From Lysobacter sp. Root690 (GTDB lineage: Bacteria; Pseudomonadota; Gammaproteobacteria; Xanthomonadales; Xanthomonadaceae), in contig NZ_LMHM01000012.1 in assembly GCF_001427785.1 (NCBI RefSeq), positions 158,123 through 215,240 of the forward strand: 57,118 nt of DNA. The letters are read 5' to 3'. Made by a program: the position numbers and the translations under genes. Positions within the stretch are counted from its first letter, which is position 1. Each line of letters starts with the position of its first letter. The notes beneath the pieces were generated by a model. It was not told the DNA's origin. It saw nothing but the letters and a program-made list of their open reading frames with translations, and ran no database searches. Positions 46,626-56,777 of this stretch are shown here, in pieces.

Positions 46626-48089
<1,464 letters not shown>

Positions 48090-48137: not shown

Positions 48138-48806
48138 ATGAAGCCAAGGATTTCGGTCAACCAACTCGGCGAATACATGATGGCCACGCCGTCGCGGCGG
48201 CGGCAGATCGTCAGGGACCAGAAGAACCCGCCGCTGTTCAAATCCACCCGCTACCGCGACGCGCGCGAAGTCATCGCCGATCACATCGCCTCGAACATGG
48301 TCGACGACGCGGCCGCGCTGGCCGCGGCCGAAGCGCTGCGCGAGAACACCGACGGCAGCGACTTCGCGATCCAGGACCGGATCCATTCGGCGCATGCGAT
48401 CACCGCGTTCCTGGATATCTGCGAAGACATGAAGATCGGCGCGCTGACCGCGGTGCGGGTCGATACCTTTTCCAGCGACGGGCTGGAACTGGCCGGGGTA
48501 AAAGTGGTGATGCGTCCGGAAGCCTTGCTGCTGGACCCGGAGACGCAGGAGGTCGTCGGCTGCGTCAAGCTGCACTTCTCGCGCACCCAGCCATTGGATG
48601 GCCGCAGCGCCGCCTACGTCGCGACCGCGCTGCGCGCGCACCTGGAGCAGAACCTGTCGGCGCCCGGGACGGTCAATCCGGATCGCTGCTACGTCGTCGA
48701 TATCGCCACCCGCAGCATTCTGAGCGCGCCGAAGGCCAACAAACGCCGGCTCGGCGATCTTGGCGCGGCGTGCGAGGAGATCAAGGATCGGTGGGTGGGG
48801 GTTTGA
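48138..48806 (+). CDS. conserved hypothetical, start MKPRISVNQLGEYM
   Basis: 222 aa, preceded by GGGGAGTC. The opening MKPRISVNQLGEYMMATPSR plus RRQIVRDQKNPPLF, then STRYRDAREVIADHI, is a recurrent but unnamed N-terminus. The centre is helical, and the second half is a strand-rich domain (LELAGVKVVMRPEALLLDPE, VGCVKLHFSRTQPL). No membrane or signal segment. The next gene, on the same strand 125 bp on, is a HEPN protein, so the two may act together, but neither operon nor partnership is proven. Confidence 0.7.
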   Translation: MKPRISVNQLGEYMMATPSRRRQIVRDQKNPPLFKSTRYRDAREVIADHIASNMVDDAAALAAAEALRENTDGSDFAIQDRIHSAHAITAFLDICEDMKIGALTAVRVDTFSSDGLELAGVKVVMRPEALLLDPETQEVVGCVKLHFSRTQPLDGRSAAYVATALRAHLEQNLSAPGTVNPDRCYVVDIATRSILSAPKANKRRLGDLGAACEEIKDRWVGV

Positions 48807-48931
48807 TTCCTGCGCGACAAGGCGCGGCCGTTGCGTACACCGCGACGGTCGCGCGCTCGATTCTCGTCATTTTATGCGGCCGACGAAACCACCACCCTGC
48901 ATGGCCATCGACCCGGGTTTGCGATCCGTCC

Positions 48932-49702
48932 ATGGCTCGAACTGAAGCGCACACACCTGCACCCGATGCCGGAGCGGTCGGTCCTGGCCCACGGCAAACG
49001 CCGCCGGCGTTGATCGATCATCCCGCGCTGAAAACGCTGCTCGCCGATTTTAAAGCGTATGCGCAGTCCGGATTGAGCGCCGTCCAATCCGGACGCAAGC
49101 AGTTCAATGCGTCCGAGGCGTCGCTCTATGCCGCCGCCGTCATGGAACGAGTGGTCGCGGTGGACGACACGATGGCTTCGCTGCATATCGCATCGACGTA
49201 CCTGCACGAACTGTCCACGCAAGCCGAGTCAGCGACGGCGCTGCACCGCTACCACTACGAGAATTTCATTCTTCGAACGATCGGCGGTATCGACCGTGTT
49301 TACCGGCTGATCGGCGCGGTATTGCGGCTCGATCCAAGACGCTACGACTCGTCCACGGGCAATCGCCATGTGGACCAATACGTGCAACTTCATCATCCTG
49401 GTTTGCACGCGTCGGTCGCGGCCATCCACGACCTGGGCGAGCATTATCGGGCGATCCGGAACGCATTGATTCATGCCGACCCATACTCGAACCGCGATCT
49501 TTGCATGTTCGATACAGCGCACAGGCTGGGCGATCGTTTCGAACCTATCGATACGCCTGCGCTTTATCGAGACTGCATGCGCCAACGCTGCGACGAAGTG
49601 GATACGCGGCTCGCGCAATTGCAGGCCGCGATAAGCACAGTGCTCGACCAGCTCGCGCCGCTGCTGCGAAACGGCGCGGCCGTGGCCGCGCAAACTCGCT
49701 GA
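48932..49702 (+). CDS. HEPN-domain protein, Cthe_2314-like
   Basis: 256 aa from the ATG at 48932; sequence upstream of this codon in the same frame belongs to overlapping genes. The domain is all-helical, with HRYHYENFILRTIGGIDRVY, then LHASVAAIHDLGEHYRAIRN and the RNALIHAD motif (Arg176, His181), which fits the Rx4-6H RNase motif of HEPN proteins. Looser codon use than its neighbours suggests transfer. HEPN proteins often act in toxin or defence modules; an RNase role is inferred. No clear antitoxin such as MNT is next to it. Confidence 0.65.
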   Translation: MARTEAHTPAPDAGAVGPGPRQTPPALIDHPALKTLLADFKAYAQSGLSAVQSGRKQFNASEASLYAAAVMERVVAVDDTMASLHIASTYLHELSTQAESATALHRYHYENFILRTIGGIDRVYRLIGAVLRLDPRRYDSSTGNRHVDQYVQLHHPGLHASVAAIHDLGEHYRAIRNALIHADPYSNRDLCMFDTAHRLGDRFEPIDTPALYRDCMRQRCDEVDTRLAQLQAAISTVLDQLAPLLRNGAAVAAQTR

Positions 49703-49726: not shown

Positions 49727-51052
49727 TCAAAACGACCGCGACCCGCGCATCGAAAACACGAAGTTAGGCGCATCGGGCGTCAGCCCCGCGGCGAGTTGTC
49801 CGTTGAGCGTCCAGCCCGAGGGCAACACGTAGCTCGCGCCGATGTTGAACGTGGTCGAGTTGCTGGAGCTGCCCGGCACGCGCCGTTTTTCGCCGCCCGG
49901 CGCGGTCAGGTGGGTGGCGCCGGTGACCGCGGTGGCGACGGCGAAACTCACTGCGGAGCGATCGTTGAGGGCGATCGCCAGGCCGCCGCTGAGCTGGATG
50001 CTGTTGCCCAGCTCGACCCGCGCGGGCGAAACCTGTTCGGCCACCGGCGAGATGTCGTCGAAATCGGTCGGCTGGTTGTAGGTGTAGCCCAGGTTGCCGA
50101 ACAGGATCACCGGGTCGTAGGTGCGCAGCGCCGATACGTTGACCGTCGCGGCCCAGATGCCCGAACCGGTCGGCAGGTCCTCGGGGATGTTGAGGTTGTT
50201 GTTGTCGCCGTCGGGCTGGATCAGCTTCAGCCCGAACGGGTCGCGCCCGGTCGGCGCGCGCACGCGCACGCTGGTGACGATATCGGGCCAGCGCTGCGAT
50301 TCCTTTACCCATTGGTAGTACGCGGCGATGCTGGCATCGCCGATGCCCTGAGAGCGCATGCGCACTTCGCTGACCACGCTGGACGCGCCGCCGGCGCCGC
50401 CGCTGACGAAACGCGAGTCGCGGTAGACGTACGGCAGGCTGGCCTCGATGCTGAGTCGGTCGCTGAGGCCGTAGCGGCCACTGAGTTCGAAGGTGCCGAC
50501 GCTGGCCTTGGTCTGGTCCAGGTTGATGCTGCCCAGGAAGATCGCGTCCAGCGCCAGGAAGCCGCTCAACGCCAGTTGCCGGCGGTCGTAATAGCTGTAG
50601 CTGAAACCGGTGTCGAGAGTGAACTTGCGTTCGAACAGCGGCGCGTGTTCGCGCACGACCAGGGCCTTTTCCTGTTCGCGGCGCTGCGCATCCTCGGCGC
50701 GCTGGGTCTGGCCGACCTGCACCGGCGCATCGTCCTCGTCGTCGCGCGCGGCGCTCGCCGAGGCCTTGCGTTGCGCCTGTTCGGCCAGATCGCGCGCGCT
50801 GTCGGTCGCATCGTCTTGCTGCGCGAGCGACGGCGGCGCGCCGCTCAGGCCGCGTCCGCGCTGGGTCAGTTCGAGGTCGTCGACCTGACCGCGCAATCGT
50901 TCGATCTCGGCTTTCTGCGCGGCCAGTTCGCGGCTCATGTCGAGCATGCGCTGGTGCAGCGACTTGAAATCGGCGGCGGCTTCGTCGGCATGGGCCGGCG
51001 CGCTCAGGGCGAGCGCGAGGGCGACGGACAGTGGAGCGAGCAGAGGGCGCAT
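49727..51052 (-). CDS. fapF: FapF-like amyloid secretion pore
   Basis: 441 aa. Signal peptide (about 1-22, PAHADE) leads to a coiled coil (about 27-62, LHQRMLDMSRELAAQKAEIE), a disordered Gln/Ala/Glu linker, and an outer-membrane barrel from about residue 145 (FTLDTGFSYSYYDRRQLALS to FVFSMRGSRSF). FapF is a trimeric pore whose N-terminal coiled coil plugs and organises the channel for fibre export. The terminal Phe fits barrel assembly. It is the last gene of the seven-gene operon, 36 bp after fapE. Confidence 0.85.
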   Translation of the reverse strand: MRPLLAPLSVALALALSAPAHADEAAADFKSLHQRMLDMSRELAAQKAEIERLRGQVDDLELTQRGRGLSGAPPSLAQQDDATDSARDLAEQAQRKASASAARDDEDDAPVQVGQTQRAEDAQRREQEKALVVREHAPLFERKFTLDTGFSYSYYDRRQLALSGFLALDAIFLGSINLDQTKASVGTFELSGRYGLSDRLSIEASLPYVYRDSRFVSGGAGGASSVVSEVRMRSQGIGDASIAAYYQWVKESQRWPDIVTSVRVRAPTGRDPFGLKLIQPDGDNNNLNIPEDLPTGSGIWAATVNVSALRTYDPVILFGNLGYTYNQPTDFDDISPVAEQVSPARVELGNSIQLSGGLAIALNDRSAVSFAVATAVTGATHLTAPGGEKRRVPGSSSNSTTFNIGASYVLPSGWTLNGQLAAGLTPDAPNFVFSMRGSRSF

Positions 51053-51088
51053 GGTCTCGGCGTCCGTGACAAGAGGGAGGGAAGACGA

Positions 51089-51853
51089 TCAGCGCGGCAA
51101 TGCACGCAGGCCGTCCAGGGCCTGCTGCAAGCCGAGTTGCCGACTCAGTTCCGGAGTGATCGCCGAGGTCACGATCCGCAGCTGCATGCGATTGCTCGCG
51201 TCCACGCCGTTGCCGGCGATGCGGCCAAGCTGGGCGATGCCGCCGCTGGCGCCGGGATCCAGACGTTGTTGCAGCGATGCGCCGGGGCCGTCGACGGCGA
51301 CGCGCGCGCCGCCATCGAGGAAGGTGATCCGCGCGCTCATCGCGCCGGCGCTGGCCTGGCTGTGCGACTGGCCGTTGAAGCCGGCGGCATCGGCGCGATC
51401 GACGAATCCGATCGAGGTCAGGTTGCCCAGACGATTGCCGTCGCCGGCGATCTGCGCGATCTGGCCGATGCCGCGCACCTGCACCGATTCGGCGCCGCGC
51501 GCGCTCGCGCCGGCGGCGCCCGCGGCGATCGGTGCATCGCCGGCATCGGCGCCGCTGCGCGCATCGACCTGAACATCGAAGCCGCCGCCGCGACGCTCGA
51601 CCAGCAACGAGCCGCTGGCGAAGGCGTTACCGTGCTGCGGCGTGTTGAGGCTGGACACCAGGTCCACGCGCAGGCCGACCAGCATCTGCGCGCCGAAGTA
51701 TTTGCCGCTGATCGTGGCCAGGGTGGCGTCGTCGACGACATACGCGGTCAACGCATGCGCTTTCAAAGGTGGCAGGGCGGCCGCGGGTTGCCACGCGGCC
51801 GCCGCTGCCAAGAGGGCCGAGAACAACGTCGGGGGGAGTAGTGGACAGTTCAT
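51089..51853 (-). CDS. fapE: FapE-like secreted amyloid accessory protein
   Basis: 254 aa from the ATG at 51853; a TTG 33 bp upstream overlaps fapD and is the alternative. Signal peptide of about 27 residues. Two copies of an Asn/Gln/Gly repeat resemble the subunit repeats: VRGIGQIAQIAGDGNRLGNL (about 127-145) and SGGIAQLGRIAGNGVDASN (about 203-221). GQIAQIAGDGN-N-T matches what is expected of FapE. In Pseudomonas FapE is a minor fibre or periplasmic component. The position between fapD and fapF fits the fapDEF order. Confidence 0.75.
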   Translation of the reverse strand: MNCPLLPPTLFSALLAAAAAWQPAAALPPLKAHALTAYVVDDATLATISGKYFGAQMLVGLRVDLVSSLNTPQHGNAFASGSLLVERRGGGFDVQVDARSGADAGDAPIAAGAAGASARGAESVQVRGIGQIAQIAGDGNRLGNLTSIGFVDRADAAGFNGQSHSQASAGAMSARITFLDGGARVAVDGPGASLQQRLDPGASGGIAQLGRIAGNGVDASNRMQLRIVTSAITPELSRQLGLQQALDGLRALPR

Positions 51854-51882
51854 CGGACACCTCGAAAACATGCGAAACGACG

Positions 51883-52620
51883 TCAAAAAAGATCGGTGAT
51901 CACCAACCCGAACTCGACCACGCGCGGTGGCGCGGTGACACGGTCGAGCGCGTCCACGCGTCGCTGCAACGCGGGCGAGCTGCGGCTGTTGACCAGATAA
52001 GAATCGGCGCGCATGGGTTGGTCGCCGACCACGGCCAGCACGATGCCGTTCCAGCCGCGCGCGAAATCCGCTTCCTGCATGACCCGGTGGCCGAGCGCCG
52101 GATCGGCGACGAACACCCGCCCGCCGGCCGCGCCCTTGACCACGACGAAATGGCGATAGCCCTTGAGATCGAGCAGCGCGATCACCGGCATCTGCAAGCG
52201 GTACAAGGCGTCGGCGTCAATGCGGAAGCCGTGCGCGCGCATGCCGATGCTCTCGACGTAGCGTTTCATGTCGAGCATCGAGAAACCGTTGCGCACCACT
52301 TCCTTGGGATCGACCCCGACCATCATCTTCTTGATCAGCTCCGGCTCGCTGACGTCCAGGCCGTAGCCGTAATGCAACAGGCTCGCCAATGCCGCCGAGC
52401 CGCAGCTGAAGTCGTAGCGCTGGCGCAGCAGTTCGCGGTAACGCAGATCGCGCAGCGTACGCATCGGCTTGAGCACCGGCATGCCGCCGTTGCCGGTCAG
52501 GCGGGTCAGGTCGACCGTGGCGCGGCTGTCGTCCGCGCGCTGCGCGCGAACGGCGCCGCAATGCAGCGCGGCGAGGGTCGCGATGGCGACGGCGATCAGC
52601 GAGGCTCGGTGTACGGTCAT
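51883..52620 (-). CDS. fapD: FapD-like C39 peptidase
   Basis: 245 aa, signal peptide about 1-27. It is a papain-like C39 peptidase, as in the FapD component of functional amyloid operons. The oxyanion Gln67 and catalytic Cys73 lie in LLRQRYDFSCGSAALASLL. His157 is in DLKGYRHFVVVKG and Asp173 in VFVADPALGH. In bacteriocin exporters C39 domains cut double-glycine leaders, but here it is a stand-alone periplasmic protein, as in Pseudomonas. The ribosome site is weak. It lies 89 bp after the second subunit gene. Confidence 0.88.
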   Translation of the reverse strand: MTVHRASLIAVAIATLAALHCGAVRAQRADDSRATVDLTRLTGNGGMPVLKPMRTLRDLRYRELLRQRYDFSCGSAALASLLHYGYGLDVSEPELIKKMMVGVDPKEVVRNGFSMLDMKRYVESIGMRAHGFRIDADALYRLQMPVIALLDLKGYRHFVVVKGAAGGRVFVADPALGHRVMQEADFARGWNGIVLAVVGDQPMRADSYLVNSRSSPALQRRVDALDRVTAPPRVVEFGLVITDLF

Positions 52621-52660
52621 GGCGGGACGGCACCTGGACGTTGCGCGATCGAAGCGGGAG

Positions 52661-52689
52661 CCACGGTGCCCGCGGCGCGGCCACCGTGG
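52661..52689. repeat. hairpin after second amyloid subunit gene
   Basis: CCACGGTG (52661-52668) and CACCGTGG (52682-52689) pair perfectly around a 13-nt GC-rich loop, 20 bp after the stop of the subunit gene. It may stabilise the upstream mRNA. Confidence 0.5.
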
Positions 52690-52709
52690 TGGTTGCGGTG
52701 AAACCAGGT

Positions 52710-53528
52710 TCAGTCGCCGCAGCCGCTGCCGCAGGTCGGCGGCGGCGGCGGTGGCGCGCAGGCGCCGCACGACGCGGTCGCGATCGACAGGCCGTTGTGC
52801 TGCAGGTTGCCGACGCCGGAGGCGACGTTGACGCCGATGTTCCCCTGCGCGCCGGACAGCGCATTGCCGTCGAGCGAGGCGTACAGGTCCAGGCTCAGGC
52901 GACGGCCGTCGCTGTCGAGCAGGTTCGAGATCGCCAGTTGTTCGCTGTCGGCGGTCGCGATGGCCAGACGGCCGGAGCTGTTGACCGATGCGGCCATGCC
53001 GTTGCCTTGCGCATTGCCCACGCCCGCGGCGACGTTGACGCCGATGTTGCCCTTGGCGTTGGACAACGCGTTGCCGTCGAGGGTGGCGTCGTAGTACGTG
53101 TGATCGGTGTTGGTGGTGGCGTAGTTGCCCAGGCTGGCCTGGCTGCCGAACACCATCGCCGAGGCGAACACTTTTTCGCCGTCCACCGCCGACAGCGCGG
53201 TGTCGTTGGCCTGGGCGTTGCCGACGCCGGCGGCGACGTTGGCGCCGATGTTGCCTTGCGCATCCGACAGCGCGTCGCCGCCGAGGTGCGCGTCGTGATC
53301 GCCGTCGCCGAGCGAGCTGTTGAGCAAGGTCGTCTGGTCCTGATCGACGGTCGCCGCCGATTCGGACGCGACGCGGATCTTGCCGCGGACCTTGACCCGG
53401 CCCGATACATCGATCTGATTGCTGATGAAGGTGGCGCTGTCGATGACGGCATCGTCGCCTTCGGCTAAGGCCGGCAGGGCAATGCCCGAGGCCAGCGCGA
53501 TCGCCAGCAACGTGGTGTGCAGTTTCAT
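52710..53528 (-). CDS. fapC: Fap-type amyloid subunit, three repeats (FapC position)
   Basis: 272 aa from the ATG at 53528, with GGAG before it. After the signal peptide (about 1-22) and a charged segment, three repeats lie at 85-113, 153-181 and 222-250, each built as ALS-AQGNIG-NVAAGVGN-Q-N--A. Linkers of about 40 residues separate them. The C-terminus has CGAC (254-257), then six prolines and a second pair, CGSGC. Three Asn/Gln-rich repeats, variable linkers and a terminal CxxC define FapC/FapB. The symbol is assigned by order beside fapD. R1 is nearly identical to that of the upstream subunit. Confidence 0.85.
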   Translation of the reverse strand: MKLHTTLLAIALASGIALPALAEGDDAVIDSATFISNQIDVSGRVKVRGKIRVASESAATVDQDQTTLLNSSLGDGDHDAHLGGDALSDAQGNIGANVAAGVGNAQANDTALSAVDGEKVFASAMVFGSQASLGNYATTNTDHTYYDATLDGNALSNAKGNIGVNVAAGVGNAQGNGMAASVNSSGRLAIATADSEQLAISNLLDSDGRRLSLDLYASLDGNALSGAQGNIGVNVASGVGNLQHNGLSIATASCGACAPPPPPPTCGSGCGD

Positions 53529-53567
53529 GTGCGTTCTCCGGGGGGAAACGGATGGAATGCGGGCGGG

Positions 53568-53597
53568 TCGCGGCCGCGGCGCACGCCGCGGCCGCGA
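53568..53597. repeat. strong hairpin after first amyloid subunit gene
   Basis: TCGCGGCCGCGGC pairs with GCCGCGGCCGCGA through a 4-nt loop, six bases after the subunit stop. It could raise the stability of the subunit transcript or reduce read-through. Confidence 0.6.
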
Positions 53598-53602
53598 ACG
53601 CA

Positions 53603-54370
53603 TCACTGGCAGCTGCCGCAGGACGCGGTGGCGATCGACAGGCCGTTGTGCTGCAGGTTGCCGACACCGGCGGCGACGTTCGCGCCGATGTTGCCCTGCG
53701 CGCCGGACAGGGCATTGCCGGTCAGGGTGGCGAAGGTGTCGAGGTCGCAATTGGCGGCCAGTTCGTTCAACCACGCATCCTGTTCGCTGTCGGACGCGGC
53801 CTTGGCGATCGTGCCGGAGCTGTTGACCGACGCGGCCATCGCATTGCTCTGCGCGTTGCCGACGCCGGCGGCGACGTTGACGCCGATGTTGCCCTTGGCG
53901 TTGGACAGCGCATCGCCGTTGAGGGTCGCGCGGTATTCGGTGTCCTGCTGCGAGGAGTACGCGTAGTTGTAGCTCGAACCCTGGCTGTTGAAGGTCATCG
54001 CCGAGGCGAACACCTTCTCGCCGTCGACCGCCGACAGCGCCGTGTCGTTGGCCTGCGCGTTGCCCACGCCGGCGGCGACGTTGGCGCCGATGTTGCCCTG
54101 CGCATCCGACAAGGCGCTGCCGCCGAGGTGCGCGGTGTGGTCGCCGTCGCCCCAGGACTCGTTGCTGTCGGTGATCTGATCCTGGTCGACGGTCGCCGCC
54201 GATTCGGACGTGACGCGGATCTTGCCTTTCACATGCACCTTGCCGGACACGTCGATGCTGTTGCCGATCCGGGTCGAGCTGTCGATCCGCGCATCGTCGC
54301 CTTCGGCGTAGGCCGGCGCGGCGATGGTCAGACTCAGGGCGAGGGCCAGCAGAGTGAATTGAACGTTCAT
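53603..54370 (-). CDS. fapB: Fap-type amyloid subunit, three repeats (FapB position)
   Basis: 255 aa, signal peptide about 1-22 (AYAEGDD), preceded by GGAGTCC. Repeats lie at 85-113 (ALSDAQGNIGANVAAGVGN), 153-181 and 219-247, with Asn and Gln at fixed positions. The C-terminus is CGSC (251-254) plus Gln. It is 51 bp after the upstream secreted gene. R1 and R2 occupy identical residue numbers in the next subunit, so the two are recent duplicates. Fap subunits of this type polymerise into extracellular beta-rich fibres. Which of the two is the major fibre former cannot be told from sequence. Confidence 0.85.
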   Translation of the reverse strand: MNVQFTLLALALSLTIAAPAYAEGDDARIDSSTRIGNSIDVSGKVHVKGKIRVTSESAATVDQDQITDSNESWGDGDHTAHLGGSALSDAQGNIGANVAAGVGNAQANDTALSAVDGEKVFASAMTFNSQGSSYNYAYSSQQDTEYRATLNGDALSNAKGNIGVNVAAGVGNAQSNAMAASVNSSGTIAKAASDSEQDAWLNELAANCDLDTFATLTGNALSGAQGNIGANVAAGVGNLQHNGLSIATASCGSCQ

Positions 54371-54421
54371 GGGTCGGACTCCTGGTAGTGGTGGTTAGGG
54401 CCTTGCGATCTGCCGTTTTTT

Positions 54422-55093
54422 CTATGGAACGCCCCCGGGCAGTTGGAGCACGATGGCGTTGACCGACGCATTGCCGATCCCCGCCGTCTGATTCAGTTGC
54501 AGCACGCCCTGGCCGCCGCGGAAGGCGTCGTCGGCGATGACCGCCTCGCGCAGGCTCGGCGCGGCGTTCGCGCCGTAGGCGTCGTCGCCATTCGCGCCGG
54601 CCACCGACGCCAGCGCGGCATCGTCGAGTCCGGCGATGACACCGGTCGCGATGCGGCCGTGACTCAACGCGAACGCATTGAGTTGGCGGTTGCCGCTGCC
54701 CGCGCTCTGGTTCAACTGCACCAGGCCGCGACTGTCGGCGAAGGCGTGCGCGTCGATGCGCGCGGATGAGGCGCGGCCGGACGCGATGCGTGCGGCGTCG
54801 ATCTCGATGTCGGTCTCGGCGATGCGCTGATCGGCATGCAGCGATGCGAGGGCGAGGCCCTCGGGCGTGATCGCGATCGCGGCAAGATTGGCTTGCGCGT
54901 TGCCGACGCCGGCGGTCTGGTTGATCGCCGCGCGGCCGTCGAGGCCGCGGGCCGCATCGGCGATGCGGGCGCGGTCGCTGCCCGCGGGCGCGGTCGGCTC
55001 GTCGGCGCGCGCGTCGCTGCAGATCGCGGTCGCCAACAGGCACGCCGCCAAACCGAACGGCGTCAGCCGCAGGGGACGCAGCCGCGCGCTCAT
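54422..55093 (-). CDS. secreted protein with three divergent amyloid-type repeats
   Basis: 223 aa from the ATG at 55093, which overlaps the preceding gene's stop (ATGA). Signal peptide of about 30 residues (ARADE). Three repeats, at about 50-74, 119-144 and 192-218, read AAINQTAGVGNAQANLAAIA, VQLNQSAGSGNRQLNAFALS and LQLNQTAGIGNASVNAIVLQ. The pattern A--G---LNQ-AG-GN-Q-N--A is that of the two subunits but with an added LNQ. There is no CxxC. It may be a nucleator, minor subunit, or the local equivalent of FapA. Confidence 0.7.
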   Translation of the reverse strand: MSARLRPLRLTPFGLAACLLATAICSDARADEPTAPAGSDRARIADAARGLDGRAAINQTAGVGNAQANLAAIAITPEGLALASLHADQRIAETDIEIDAARIASGRASSARIDAHAFADSRGLVQLNQSAGSGNRQLNAFALSHGRIATGVIAGLDDAALASVAGANGDDAYGANAAPSLREAVIADDAFRGGQGVLQLNQTAGIGNASVNAIVLQLPGGVP

Positions 55094-55671
55094 CGACCCG
55101 GCCCCTGCATCGGCGCGACTTGCGGCGCCAAGGCCTGCATCACGCTGCCGGTGACCAGATCGCCGATCCCGGCGGTGGCGCTTTTGACCGCGCCGCCGAC
55201 GCTCATGGTCGGACCCATCGGCGGCGCCGAGGCCGAACCGCCGAGCATCGCGTTCGGGTTGGCCGCGCCCATCGCATCGGCCGGCACCAGCAGGCCGGTC
55301 AATGCCTGCGTGGCGGTTGTCGGACTCAGGCCGGCCGAGCCGTGCTGATCGAGTTCGGCGTCGCCGATCAACGGCGCGAGCGAGCGTTCCAGAGTGCCGT
55401 GGAAGATCTGCGCCGGGAACGTCGTGGCCTGGGTGCGCACCGGATTGTCCTGCGCCGGCAGCGCGCGGTAGGCGATGCGCGGGTGGACGGTGCGGGCGAT
55501 CACCACGCTGGGGTCCTCGCTCGCGTCGTTGGTCGGGTTCGCGCCCGGCGCGGCGTCCTGGGCGTGGACCTGGCCGGCGACCGCGAACACGGCGGCGACG
55601 GCGCAGGGCAAGGCCGCGCTCACTACCCGCTGCAGCGGGGTGCGGTCGAACCGACGGGGGATGGCGAACAT
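55090..55671 (-). CDS. secreted hypothetical protein, first gene of Fap-like operon
   Basis: 193 aa, signal peptide about 1-38 (ending VHAQD). The mature part is Ala/Pro/Gly-rich with IVARTVHPRIAYRALPAQDN and IFHGTLERSLAPLIGDAELD, then a flexible Gly/Ser/Met tail. No repeat or cysteine motif is seen. It couples by a 4-bp overlap to the repeat protein behind it. By position it could be a FapA-like periplasmic regulator of fibre composition, but no sequence similarity supports this. Confidence 0.6.
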   Translation of the reverse strand: MFAIPRRFDRTPLQRVVSAALPCAVAAVFAVAGQVHAQDAAPGANPTNDASEDPSVVIARTVHPRIAYRALPAQDNPVRTQATTFPAQIFHGTLERSLAPLIGDAELDQHGSAGLSPTTATQALTGLLVPADAMGAANPNAMLGGSASAPPMGPTMSVGGAVKSATAGIGDLVTGSVMQALAPQVAPMQGPGR

Positions 55672-56060
55672 GACGACGTACTCCGAAGCGGGGACTCAGG
55701 GCGCGCGATTCGGGGGCAGTCGAAGCGGCGCGAGAGGACCTACGCGAGAGTCGTGCCAAGCTTTCAAATAGCTGAAATTCATGGTTTTTTTGCCAAACCC
55801 CGAAAACATGCCAGGGATCTGGGCCATAAAACGTTGCGCCGCGGTTACGCGGTCCGGCGCTGAACGCGGACATGCTGCGCGGCGTCAATGGATGAACCGT
55901 TCACCGCTCAGGCTTGCTGAGCCGGCTCCTCGGCGGTTTGGCTGACCGTGTTTGCGATCGCATGCCGTGGCGTTGCGTTTTTGCAACCCGGCGCGCGCGT
56001 GCGACGATGCCCGCCTTGCCCGAGCCAGGCCCGGCGCACCCTCTTCCAGCCATCAACGCC
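55672..56060. other. divergent region containing the Fap-like operon promoter
   Basis: 389 bp between the amyloid operon and the oxygenase gene. The stretch 55755-55835 is AT-rich for this genome and includes TTTCAAATAGC and GGTTTTTTTGCC. No sigma-54 GG-N10-GC site or clear sigma-70 pair was found. No gene is seen. Confidence 0.45.
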
Positions 56061-56777
56061 ATGTCATCGACGACCGATTCCAGCGCAGACGATTTCATCG
56101 AGGTCTATCCGCAGGCGCTCACGCGCGAGCAATGCGCGACGCTGGTGCAGCGCTTCGACGCCAGCCGCGACAGCGAGCCGGGCCGGGTCGGCGGCGGGGT
56201 GATGCCCGACCTCAAGGACAGCCGCGATCTCACCATCACCGGACGCGAAGGCTGGAAGGACATGGAGCTCGCCTTGAACCTGGCGGTGTTCCGCGGCCTG
56301 TTGCAGTACCTGCGCCGCTATCCGCACACGATGATCGCGCCGCTGATGCTCGAAGCCCCCAGCGCCGATGGCAAACGCCATCGGCTCACCGCCGAGCGCG
56401 TGGCCGAGATGGACGACAACGCCTTGTCGCCGATCGCGCAGACCGTGTTCCGTCCCGGTGCGATCAACCTGCAGCGTTACACCGCCAACCGCGGCGGCTA
56501 TCCGTACTGGCATTGCGAGCTGTACCCGCGCGACCAGAGCGCGGAGACGCTGCACCGGCACGTGCTGTGGACGATTTATTTGAATGACGGCTTCGAGGAA
56601 GGCGAAACCGAATTCCTCTATCAGCGCCGCAAGATCGCGCCGCGCGCGGGCGACCTGCTGATCGCGCCGGCGGCGTTCACCCACACCCATCGCGGCAATC
56701 GGCCTAAGGGTGGGGATAAGTACATCGCGACCAGCTGGATTCTGTTTCAGCGGGCCGAGCGGTTGTACGCGGGGTGA
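56061..56777 (+). CDS. 2OG-Fe(II) oxygenase, prolyl-4-hydroxylase-like
   Basis: 238 aa from the ATG at 56061. It is a double-stranded beta-helix oxygenase that uses 2-oxoglutarate and iron. GGYPYWHCELYPRD carries the first His (151), with Glu153 in place of the usual Asp. HRHVLWTIYLNDGFEEGETEF is the core strand pair, and AFTHTHRGNRPKGGDKYIA holds the distal His and a basic 2OG contact. The HxE form is less common than HxD. No substrate gene is adjacent, though it lies divergent from a Pro-tailed amyloid subunit. Confidence 0.82.
   Translation: MSSTTDSSADDFIEVYPQALTREQCATLVQRFDASRDSEPGRVGGGVMPDLKDSRDLTITGREGWKDMELALNLAVFRGLLQYLRRYPHTMIAPLMLEAPSADGKRHRLTAERVAEMDDNALSPIAQTVFRPGAINLQRYTANRGGYPYWHCELYPRDQSAETLHRHVLWTIYLNDGFEEGETEFLYQRRKIAPRAGDLLIAPAAFTHTHRGNRPKGGDKYIATSWILFQRAERLYAG

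Follow-up and report, generated by a model that had tools for sequence, protein, structure and literature searches.

Identity of the operon

Which secretion system is encoded by the gene array at positions 49727-55671 of the stretch analyzed here (57,118 nucleotides from Lysobacter sp. Root690, hereafter the window), and where does it depart from the functional amyloid (Fap) operon of Pseudomonas? The interval was filled by seven tandem minus-strand open reading frames (ORFs), which we assigned to a Fap operon in the order fapA-fapB-fapC1-fapC2-fapD-fapE-fapF, with two tandem genes for the FapC subunit (Table 1). ORF 1 and ORF 2 overlapped by 4 nt, and the remaining intergenic gaps were 29-89 nt. 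A hydrophobic N-terminal stretch followed by a signal-peptidase-like site was read by eye in all seven proteins. The G+C content of the window was 67.8%, and the host genome is 6.3 Mb. An earlier note on this DNA had described seven tandem minus-strand genes with signal peptides as a complete Fap-type operon; the ORFs, the signal-like N-termini, the profile matches and the gene order all agreed with that description.

Profile searches recovered the C39 peptidase, the FapE-like gene and the barrel in the last gene that the earlier note had also proposed. The fapD product matched the Pfam C39 peptidase family (E 3.2e-23), the FapE model of NCBIfam was matched at E 9.4e-8, and residues 137-436 of FapF matched the solved FapF barrel (PDB 5O65, E 2.8e-78) in addition to the NCBIfam FapF model (E 2.5e-100). 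The lack of similarity of the barrel and the C39 protein to FapF and FapD, which that note had named as evidence against itself, was not observed. FapC1 matched solved FapC fibre entries (PDB 9NQD, E 2e-16; 9U4U, E 2.7e-16). In FapD, Gln67, Cys73, His157 and Asp173, which we take to be the catalytic residues, were intact and were invariant in 121/121 rows of an alignment that counts the window twice, includes duplicate genomes and holds 11 rows from a locus type with FapD- and FapF-like genes only. The genes A-B-C-D-E-F run in one direction together with a second fapC: FapA stands first, FapB and FapC carry three repeats, FapD is a C39 peptidase with its residues intact, FapE is present and FapF is a barrel. 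The canonical layout of one fapB and one fapC was not found, as the window has three fapBC-type genes (B, C1 and C2). Judged by gene order and homology, the operon belongs to the Fap system and represents a variant layout with tandem fapC.

Several scores weigh against this assignment. The curated NCBIfam cut-offs were missed by all seven proteins, with bit scores of 336 against a cut-off of 700 for FapF, 209 against 330 for FapD, 102 and 99 against 195 for the two FapC, 90 against 190 for FapB, 31.5 against 250 for FapE and 14 against 110 for FapA. On its own, FapA matched the NCBIfam FapA model weakly (E 0.037). The FapF cut-off was reached in none of the 297 genomes of the same family that were covered by the profile search.

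The locus might instead encode a Fap-related but different secretion or pilus system, for example Fil, which NCBIfam names among the relatives and in which a C39 peptidase likewise accompanies a FapF-like barrel. The D and F proteins were matched by FilB (E 1.3e-32) and FilC (E 4e-11) as well, and the family contains divergent loci in which only FapD- and FapF-like genes are recognised (L050-L052, L161-L168). However, the Fap models won by a wide margin (FapD, E 5.2e-62; FapF, E 2.5e-100), and FapA, FapB, FapC and FapE were all present in Fap order, which makes such a system very improbable. The putative Fil pilus system was rejected because its matches were far weaker than those to FapD and FapF. 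Curli was also rejected, as Pfam and NCBIfam, searched with the seven proteins up to an E of 1, gave no match to a curli family.

A FapF-like match was found by profile search in 121/297 genomes of the same family. The matches fell mostly into two grades, with E of about 1e-95 to 1e-117 and about 1e-37 to 1e-49, alongside fragments and weak matches. Within the window's genus, 15 of the 18 genomes had a match (12 of the first grade, including the window's own, and 3 of the second), and the window's own genome had a single one. The order A-B-C-C-D-E-F was kept in all 11 first-grade same-genus loci that were fetched, suggesting that the arrangement is more than chance. Fap has already been reported in this bacterial order, in Rhodanobacter and Stenotrophomonas, in the cited part of a 2013 study (PMC3792158).

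Taken as a whole, the locus is best explained as a complete Fap functional-amyloid operon in Lysobacter, with Pseudomonas-like export and fibre formation, sigma-54/VpsR control and tandem FapC; we give this explanation a probability of about 0.92. Its observed basis is homology, gene order, conservation, enrichment of sigma-54 sites, activator domains, and the enrichment and covariation of a hairpin.

Table 1. Positions of the Fap genes, hairpins, promoter-like site and activator in the window
Feature	Position	Strand	Description
fapA	55090..55671	-	193 aa, divergent FapA; periplasmic chaperone/controller by homology
fapB	54422..55093	-	223 aa, minor subunit/nucleator by homology; NCBIfam FapB E 1.5e-25
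fapC1	53603..54370	-	255 aa, major subunit, first copy; NCBIfam FapC E 4e-29
fapC2	52710..53528	-	272 aa, major subunit, second copy; NCBIfam FapC E 4.1e-28
fapD	51883..52620	-	245 aa, C39 cysteine peptidase; NCBIfam FapD E 5.2e-62
fapE	51089..51853	-	254 aa; NCBIfam FapE E 9.4e-8
fapF	49727..51052	-	441 aa, N-terminal region and outer-membrane barrel; NCBIfam FapF E 2.5e-100
Perfect 13-bp hairpin, fapC1-fapC2 gap	53568..53597	-	RNA fold of the gap, z -4.85; covariation over 22 distinct junctions
Imperfect hairpin, fapC2-fapD gap	52661..52689	-	z -0.32
Sigma-54 (-24/-12) promoter-like site TTGGCACGACTCTCGCGT	55742..55759	-	about 70 nt upstream of the fapA start; 10/12 consensus positions
VpsR-domain sigma-54 activator (bacterial enhancer-binding protein), BrfA-like candidate	46626..48089	+	Pfam Sigma54_activat E 1e-67, VpsR E 3.3e-19, HTH_8 E 2.3e-4

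FapA and FapB at the front of the operon

The two leading genes had been regarded as extra, possibly lineage-specific, and unlike the usual FapA; profile comparison identified them as a divergent FapA and, at E 1.5e-25, as FapB. An alignment of FapA with seven relatives matched eight Burkholderiaceae-type first-gene proteins with an hhalign probability of 99.6 (E 1.6e-24); for the first genes of six operons from a second Lysobacteraceae clade, the probability was 97.4 (E 1.3e-11). The NCBIfam FapA model was matched by 8/8 proteins of the Burkholderiaceae set (best E 2.1e-11) and by six of the eight members of the Lysobacter-type set (best E 4.9e-6). Because this bridge leads to Burkholderiaceae proteins that themselves match FapA, gene 1 was assigned to FapA, leaving an operon without extra front genes.

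FapB contained three FapB-type repeats of the form xNQxAGxGN. The earlier note had missed these when it counted two three-repeat CxxC subunits; both of those subunits are present, but they are two FapC proteins and not FapB plus FapC, so that the Fap order it proposed stood with other occupants. Its reading was partly supported: the operon is real, its first four genes were misassigned, and the lineage-specific part is the duplicated fapC instead of the leading genes.

Tandem fapC genes and the tailed last copy

Genes 3 and 4 found their best NCBIfam match in FapC (Table 1) and matched FapB at E 1.5e-12 and 1e-11, respectively. FapC1 and FapC2 were 74% identical, each with three repeats, near-identical between the copies, and a C-terminal CxxC. 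FapC1 showed three GNIGxNVAAGVGN repeats and the C-terminal end CGSCQ; the CxxC of FapC2 was followed by a proline-rich tail with further cysteines, CGACAPPPPPPTCGSGCGD.

For the fapC counts, the tail counts, the tree and the hairpin counts, duplicate genomes (L059, L060, L061, L063, L064, L076 and L159) were removed, and L073, which has no fapC on its contig, contributes nothing to the fapC counts. Two fapC genes were present in 12/12 first-grade operons of the window's genus, and two to four in 9 of the 15 operons from elsewhere in the same FapC clade; the L. arseniciresistens operon had four. The second Lysobacteraceae clade had a single fapC in 11/11 operons, and no fapC-fapC junction was found in the Burkholderiaceae-type loci scanned. 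FapC was detected at E 1e-8 or better in 16/369 genomes of the class, and two separate FapC genes only in the window's own genome (G501 showed four pieces in two frames), in a search that scored at most five candidates per genome and could therefore miss copies.

The last copy, adjoining fapD, bore a proline-rich, cysteine-bearing tail in 19 of 21 multi-copy operons, and this tail was found on none of the 25 earlier copies and none of the 17 single copies. The two untailed last copies were those of L062, which ends CGTCD, and L157, which has no cysteines. In a maximum-likelihood tree of 63 rows, C1 and C2 of the 12 genus operons formed two groups with supports of 86/88 (moderate) and 99/99, so that the pair probably predates these species. 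Start codons were guessed in the comparison of copies and in the tree, and lengths are approximate. Copies clustered by genome in several other genera (L054, L066, L067, L070 and L157), pointing to separate duplication or gene conversion.

These data bear on whether the two fapC genes are redundant, serve only dosage and do the same work, with a neutral tail. Redundancy would fit the near-identical repeats and the clustering by genome just described; moreover, 12 of the 19 tailed last copies came from one genus, so that these events are not independent. On the other hand, C1 and C2 of the genus are separate groups with different tails, and the last copy was tailed in 7 of the 9 multi-copy operons outside the genus. 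We consider redundancy a distinct possibility, at a little under even odds.

A hairpin after fapC

The gap between fapC1 and fapC2 contained a perfect hairpin (Table 1). We counted perfect stems of at least 9 within 70 nt 3' of each stop codon; where gaps are short, the 70 nt reach into the next gene, so that junction types are imperfectly comparable. In the Lysobacter group, such stems were present at 21/25 C-C and 20/27 C-D junctions. At C-D they were present in 24/63 Burkholderiaceae-type loci and in 5/11 loci of the second Lysobacteraceae clade. None followed fapA (0/100), fapB (0/101) or fapD (0/102), three of 103 junctions after fapE had one, and shuffled C junctions gave a rate of 0.3-1.8%. 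Two results run counter to this pattern: the hairpin in the fapC2-fapD gap of the window itself was imperfect and not significant, and 39 of the 63 Burkholderiaceae-type C-D junctions fell below a stem of 9. The close relative L041 had a perfect 10-bp stem in its C2-D gap.

To examine covariation, 24 C-C junctions, 22 of them distinct, were aligned; the twenty-fifth, that of L157, lacks a hairpin and was excluded, and a few rows of the alignment are misplaced. In this alignment 86% of the cells paired, and two-sided changes occurred in 21 cells compared with 8.4 in shuffles, none of 500 of which reached that number. When the partner strand was slid, at most 11 two-sided changes were obtained. 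Further pair types numbered 12, no higher than in shuffles (11.4). A scan for intrinsic terminators found 2, below the shuffle mean of 4.2, and none at the fapC hairpins; a search of Rfam gave nothing beyond a chance-level microRNA match (E 0.95). Because the terminator scan was empty at the hairpins, a role in protecting or processing 3' ends is more likely than termination.

Elsewhere in the same class, three loci (L139-L141) encode a FapC with a C-terminal CxxC and also have a GC-rich hairpin 3' of the gene. The stem was a perfect 10 bp in L139 and, read by eye, contained G-T pairs in L140 and L141; no such perfect stem was found after fapC in L143 and L147. The fapC hairpin may be wider among Fap operons.

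Putative promoter and adjoining activator

A sigma-54 promoter-like site lies upstream of fapA (Table 1). It was scored over 12 positions of the sigma-54 consensus, with GG and GC fixed. Sites scoring at least 10 were found upstream of fapA in 82/93 loci vs 128/2932 control stretches, and sites scoring at least 11 in 35/93 vs 6/2932; the controls were stretches taken from stop-to-stop frames of the same loci, spurious frames included, two loci whose upstream sequence was too short were omitted, and in these counts and those of the activator five duplicate genomes (L059, L060, L061, L063 and L076) are counted twice.

Beyond the operon end, a gene convergent with fapF encodes a sigma-54 activator with a VpsR domain. 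An activator of the same profile was located within 9.5 kb of fapF in 96/101 loci of two orders (91/96 without duplicates) and was absent near fapF in L050-L052, L092 and L093. The VpsR domain was present in 11 of 12 neighbouring activators scanned. Two VpsR-type activators, one at each operon end, were seen in L094, in L096-L103 and in other Paraburkholderia and Burkholderia loci.

The adjoining activator might serve another target, its proximity to the operon being incidental. Sigma-54 activators of such type are common, and the position is not fixed, as the gene lies upstream in Pandoraea and on each side in many Paraburkholderia. Nevertheless, its recurrence near fapF across two orders, the enrichment of sigma-54 sites before fapA, and the case of P. 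fluorescens, in which brfA is placed likewise, in reverse just beyond fapF, and is needed for fap transcription (PMC9207406, cited part), make an incidental neighbour improbable.

The cited parts of two reports describe this control in P. fluorescens. A -24/-12 promoter precedes fapA in strain PF07 (PMC9207406), and BrfA is an enhancer-binding protein that senses cyclic diguanylate (c-di-GMP) and acts directly on fapA (PMC13101488). The regulator was therefore not counted as a new discovery, BrfA having been published in the same position (PMC9207406, PMC13101488).

Comparison with known Fap operons

With Pseudomonas fapABCDEF the window shares the gene set and its order, the three repeats of FapB and FapC, a C39 FapD, a FapF barrel and, as the cited part of PMC6173800 describes for Pseudomonas, a CxxC motif in FapC. 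It differs in its two tandem fapC genes, in the proline-rich tail with further cysteines on FapC2, and in the weak scores of FapA and FapE against the NCBIfam models. With the BrfA/RpoN control of P. fluorescens PF07 it shares the reverse activator beyond fapF and the -24/-12 promoter before fapA (PMC9207406, cited part); the likeness of the window's activator to BrfA is one of layout and domains.

The Fap operons of Burkholderiaceae (Pandoraea, Paraburkholderia, Burkholderia, Ralstonia and kin) have the same order and, in most, a VpsR-type activator nearby and a sigma-54 site; the hairpin after fapC is shared in part. In contrast to the window, they showed no fapC-fapC junction and no C-terminal CxxC in the 15 FapC examined, and in Pandoraea and Paraburkholderia the activator is found upstream or at each end.

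Neighbouring genes and divergent loci

Several neighbouring genes were also noted. Divergent from fapA lies a gene for a 2-oxoglutarate-Fe(II) oxygenase (2OG-Fe(II) oxygenase; 55914-56777, plus strand; PF13640, E 2.9e-8), with relatives in 25/101 loci scanned, mostly of the Lysobacter group. A link of this gene to the proline-rich tail was dropped, as tailed operons were found both with and without it. Between fapF and the activator, a 222-aa protein (48138-48806, plus strand) is encoded; it was present there in 5 of the 11 fetched same-genus loci and matched no family in Pfam, NCBIfam or PADLOC. Immediately past fapF, on the opposite strand, lies an open frame (48917-49702, plus strand) that had no PADLOC match.

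A second, divergent Fap-like locus type exists in the same family, seen in L050 (9158-13463) and also in L051, L052 and L161-L168. The L050 locus encodes a C39 peptidase resembling FapD (E 4.9e-39) and a barrel resembling FapF (E 1.9e-39). Next to them are encoded a 339-aa glycine- and asparagine-rich protein and one of 151 aa, and NCBIfam gave no credible match for either of these two. Profiles recognised no FapA, FapB or FapC in any of these 11 loci, which possibly encode another fibre exporter.

Proposed assembly of the fibre

The following model relies on homology to Pseudomonas. In the cited part of PMC6173800, Fap proteins of Pseudomonas are described as exported by Sec; FapA is proposed to regulate FapB and FapC, the catalytic cysteine of FapD is required for FapC secretion, the FapF trimer forms the pore, FapB is the suggested nucleator and FapC is the main fibre subunit. 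By analogy, all seven proteins of the window would leave the cytoplasm via Sec. In the periplasm, FapA and the peptidase FapD would bring the subunits into, or hold them in, a secretion-competent state, and a trimeric FapF pore would pass FapB, FapC1, FapC2 and FapE outward. FapB would then nucleate, and both FapC copies would stack into one cross-beta biofilm fibre. The operon would be switched on from the sigma-54 promoter by the adjoining VpsR-domain activator, which probably responds to c-di-GMP, as BrfA of P. fluorescens is reported to do. Secretion and fibre formation are inferred, as are c-di-GMP activation and the parts played by the tail and the hairpin.

The CxxC of Pseudomonas FapC is believed to sit outside the core of the fibre, and it could function in polymerisation as well as between fibres (PMC6173800, cited part). 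By analogy, a last FapC with additional cysteines and a proline spacer would take that role further, and its tail is suggested to cross-link, cap or anchor fibres. The hairpin is suggested to protect or separate the fapC message, so that subunits would outnumber the machinery. Combining the two, we tentatively propose a two-subunit fibre in the Lysobacter group, a possible arrangement that we hold with less than half confidence, in which untailed FapC would form the body, the tailed last copy would cross-link, cap or anchor it, and the hairpin would set the ratio of subunits to machinery at the RNA level.

Relation to published surveys and significance

Surveys describe Fap operons as nearly invariant (PMC12392863, PMC12822426, cited parts). 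A GTDB survey counted two fapBC genes in 94.5% of its 1172 fap clusters and limited its FapC analysis to those; the remaining 5.5% are not discussed in its section 2.1 (PMC12392863). The cited part of its update describes the synteny and the repeat number of Fap as highly conserved (PMC12822426). By term search, the string 'duplicat' is absent from the main text of the 2013 study of Fap diversity (PMC3792158). In the open-licence literature searched, supplements excluded, neither tandem fapC (2 to 4) with a tailed last copy nor a covarying hairpin after fapC was found, which is weak evidence of novelty in each case. The open-licence literature likewise gave no description of fapC in Lysobacter, which was mentioned only in another context.

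A lineage with two to four tandem FapC and a conserved tailed copy offers a natural test of a second subunit and of extra cysteines in a functional amyloid. A hairpin after many fapC genes, and not after fapA or fapB, offers a testable answer to how many subunits and few pores are obtained from one operon. If the two-subunit fibre and the dosage by hairpin are true, Fap would not be the 'fixed' one-subunit system of the genome surveys.

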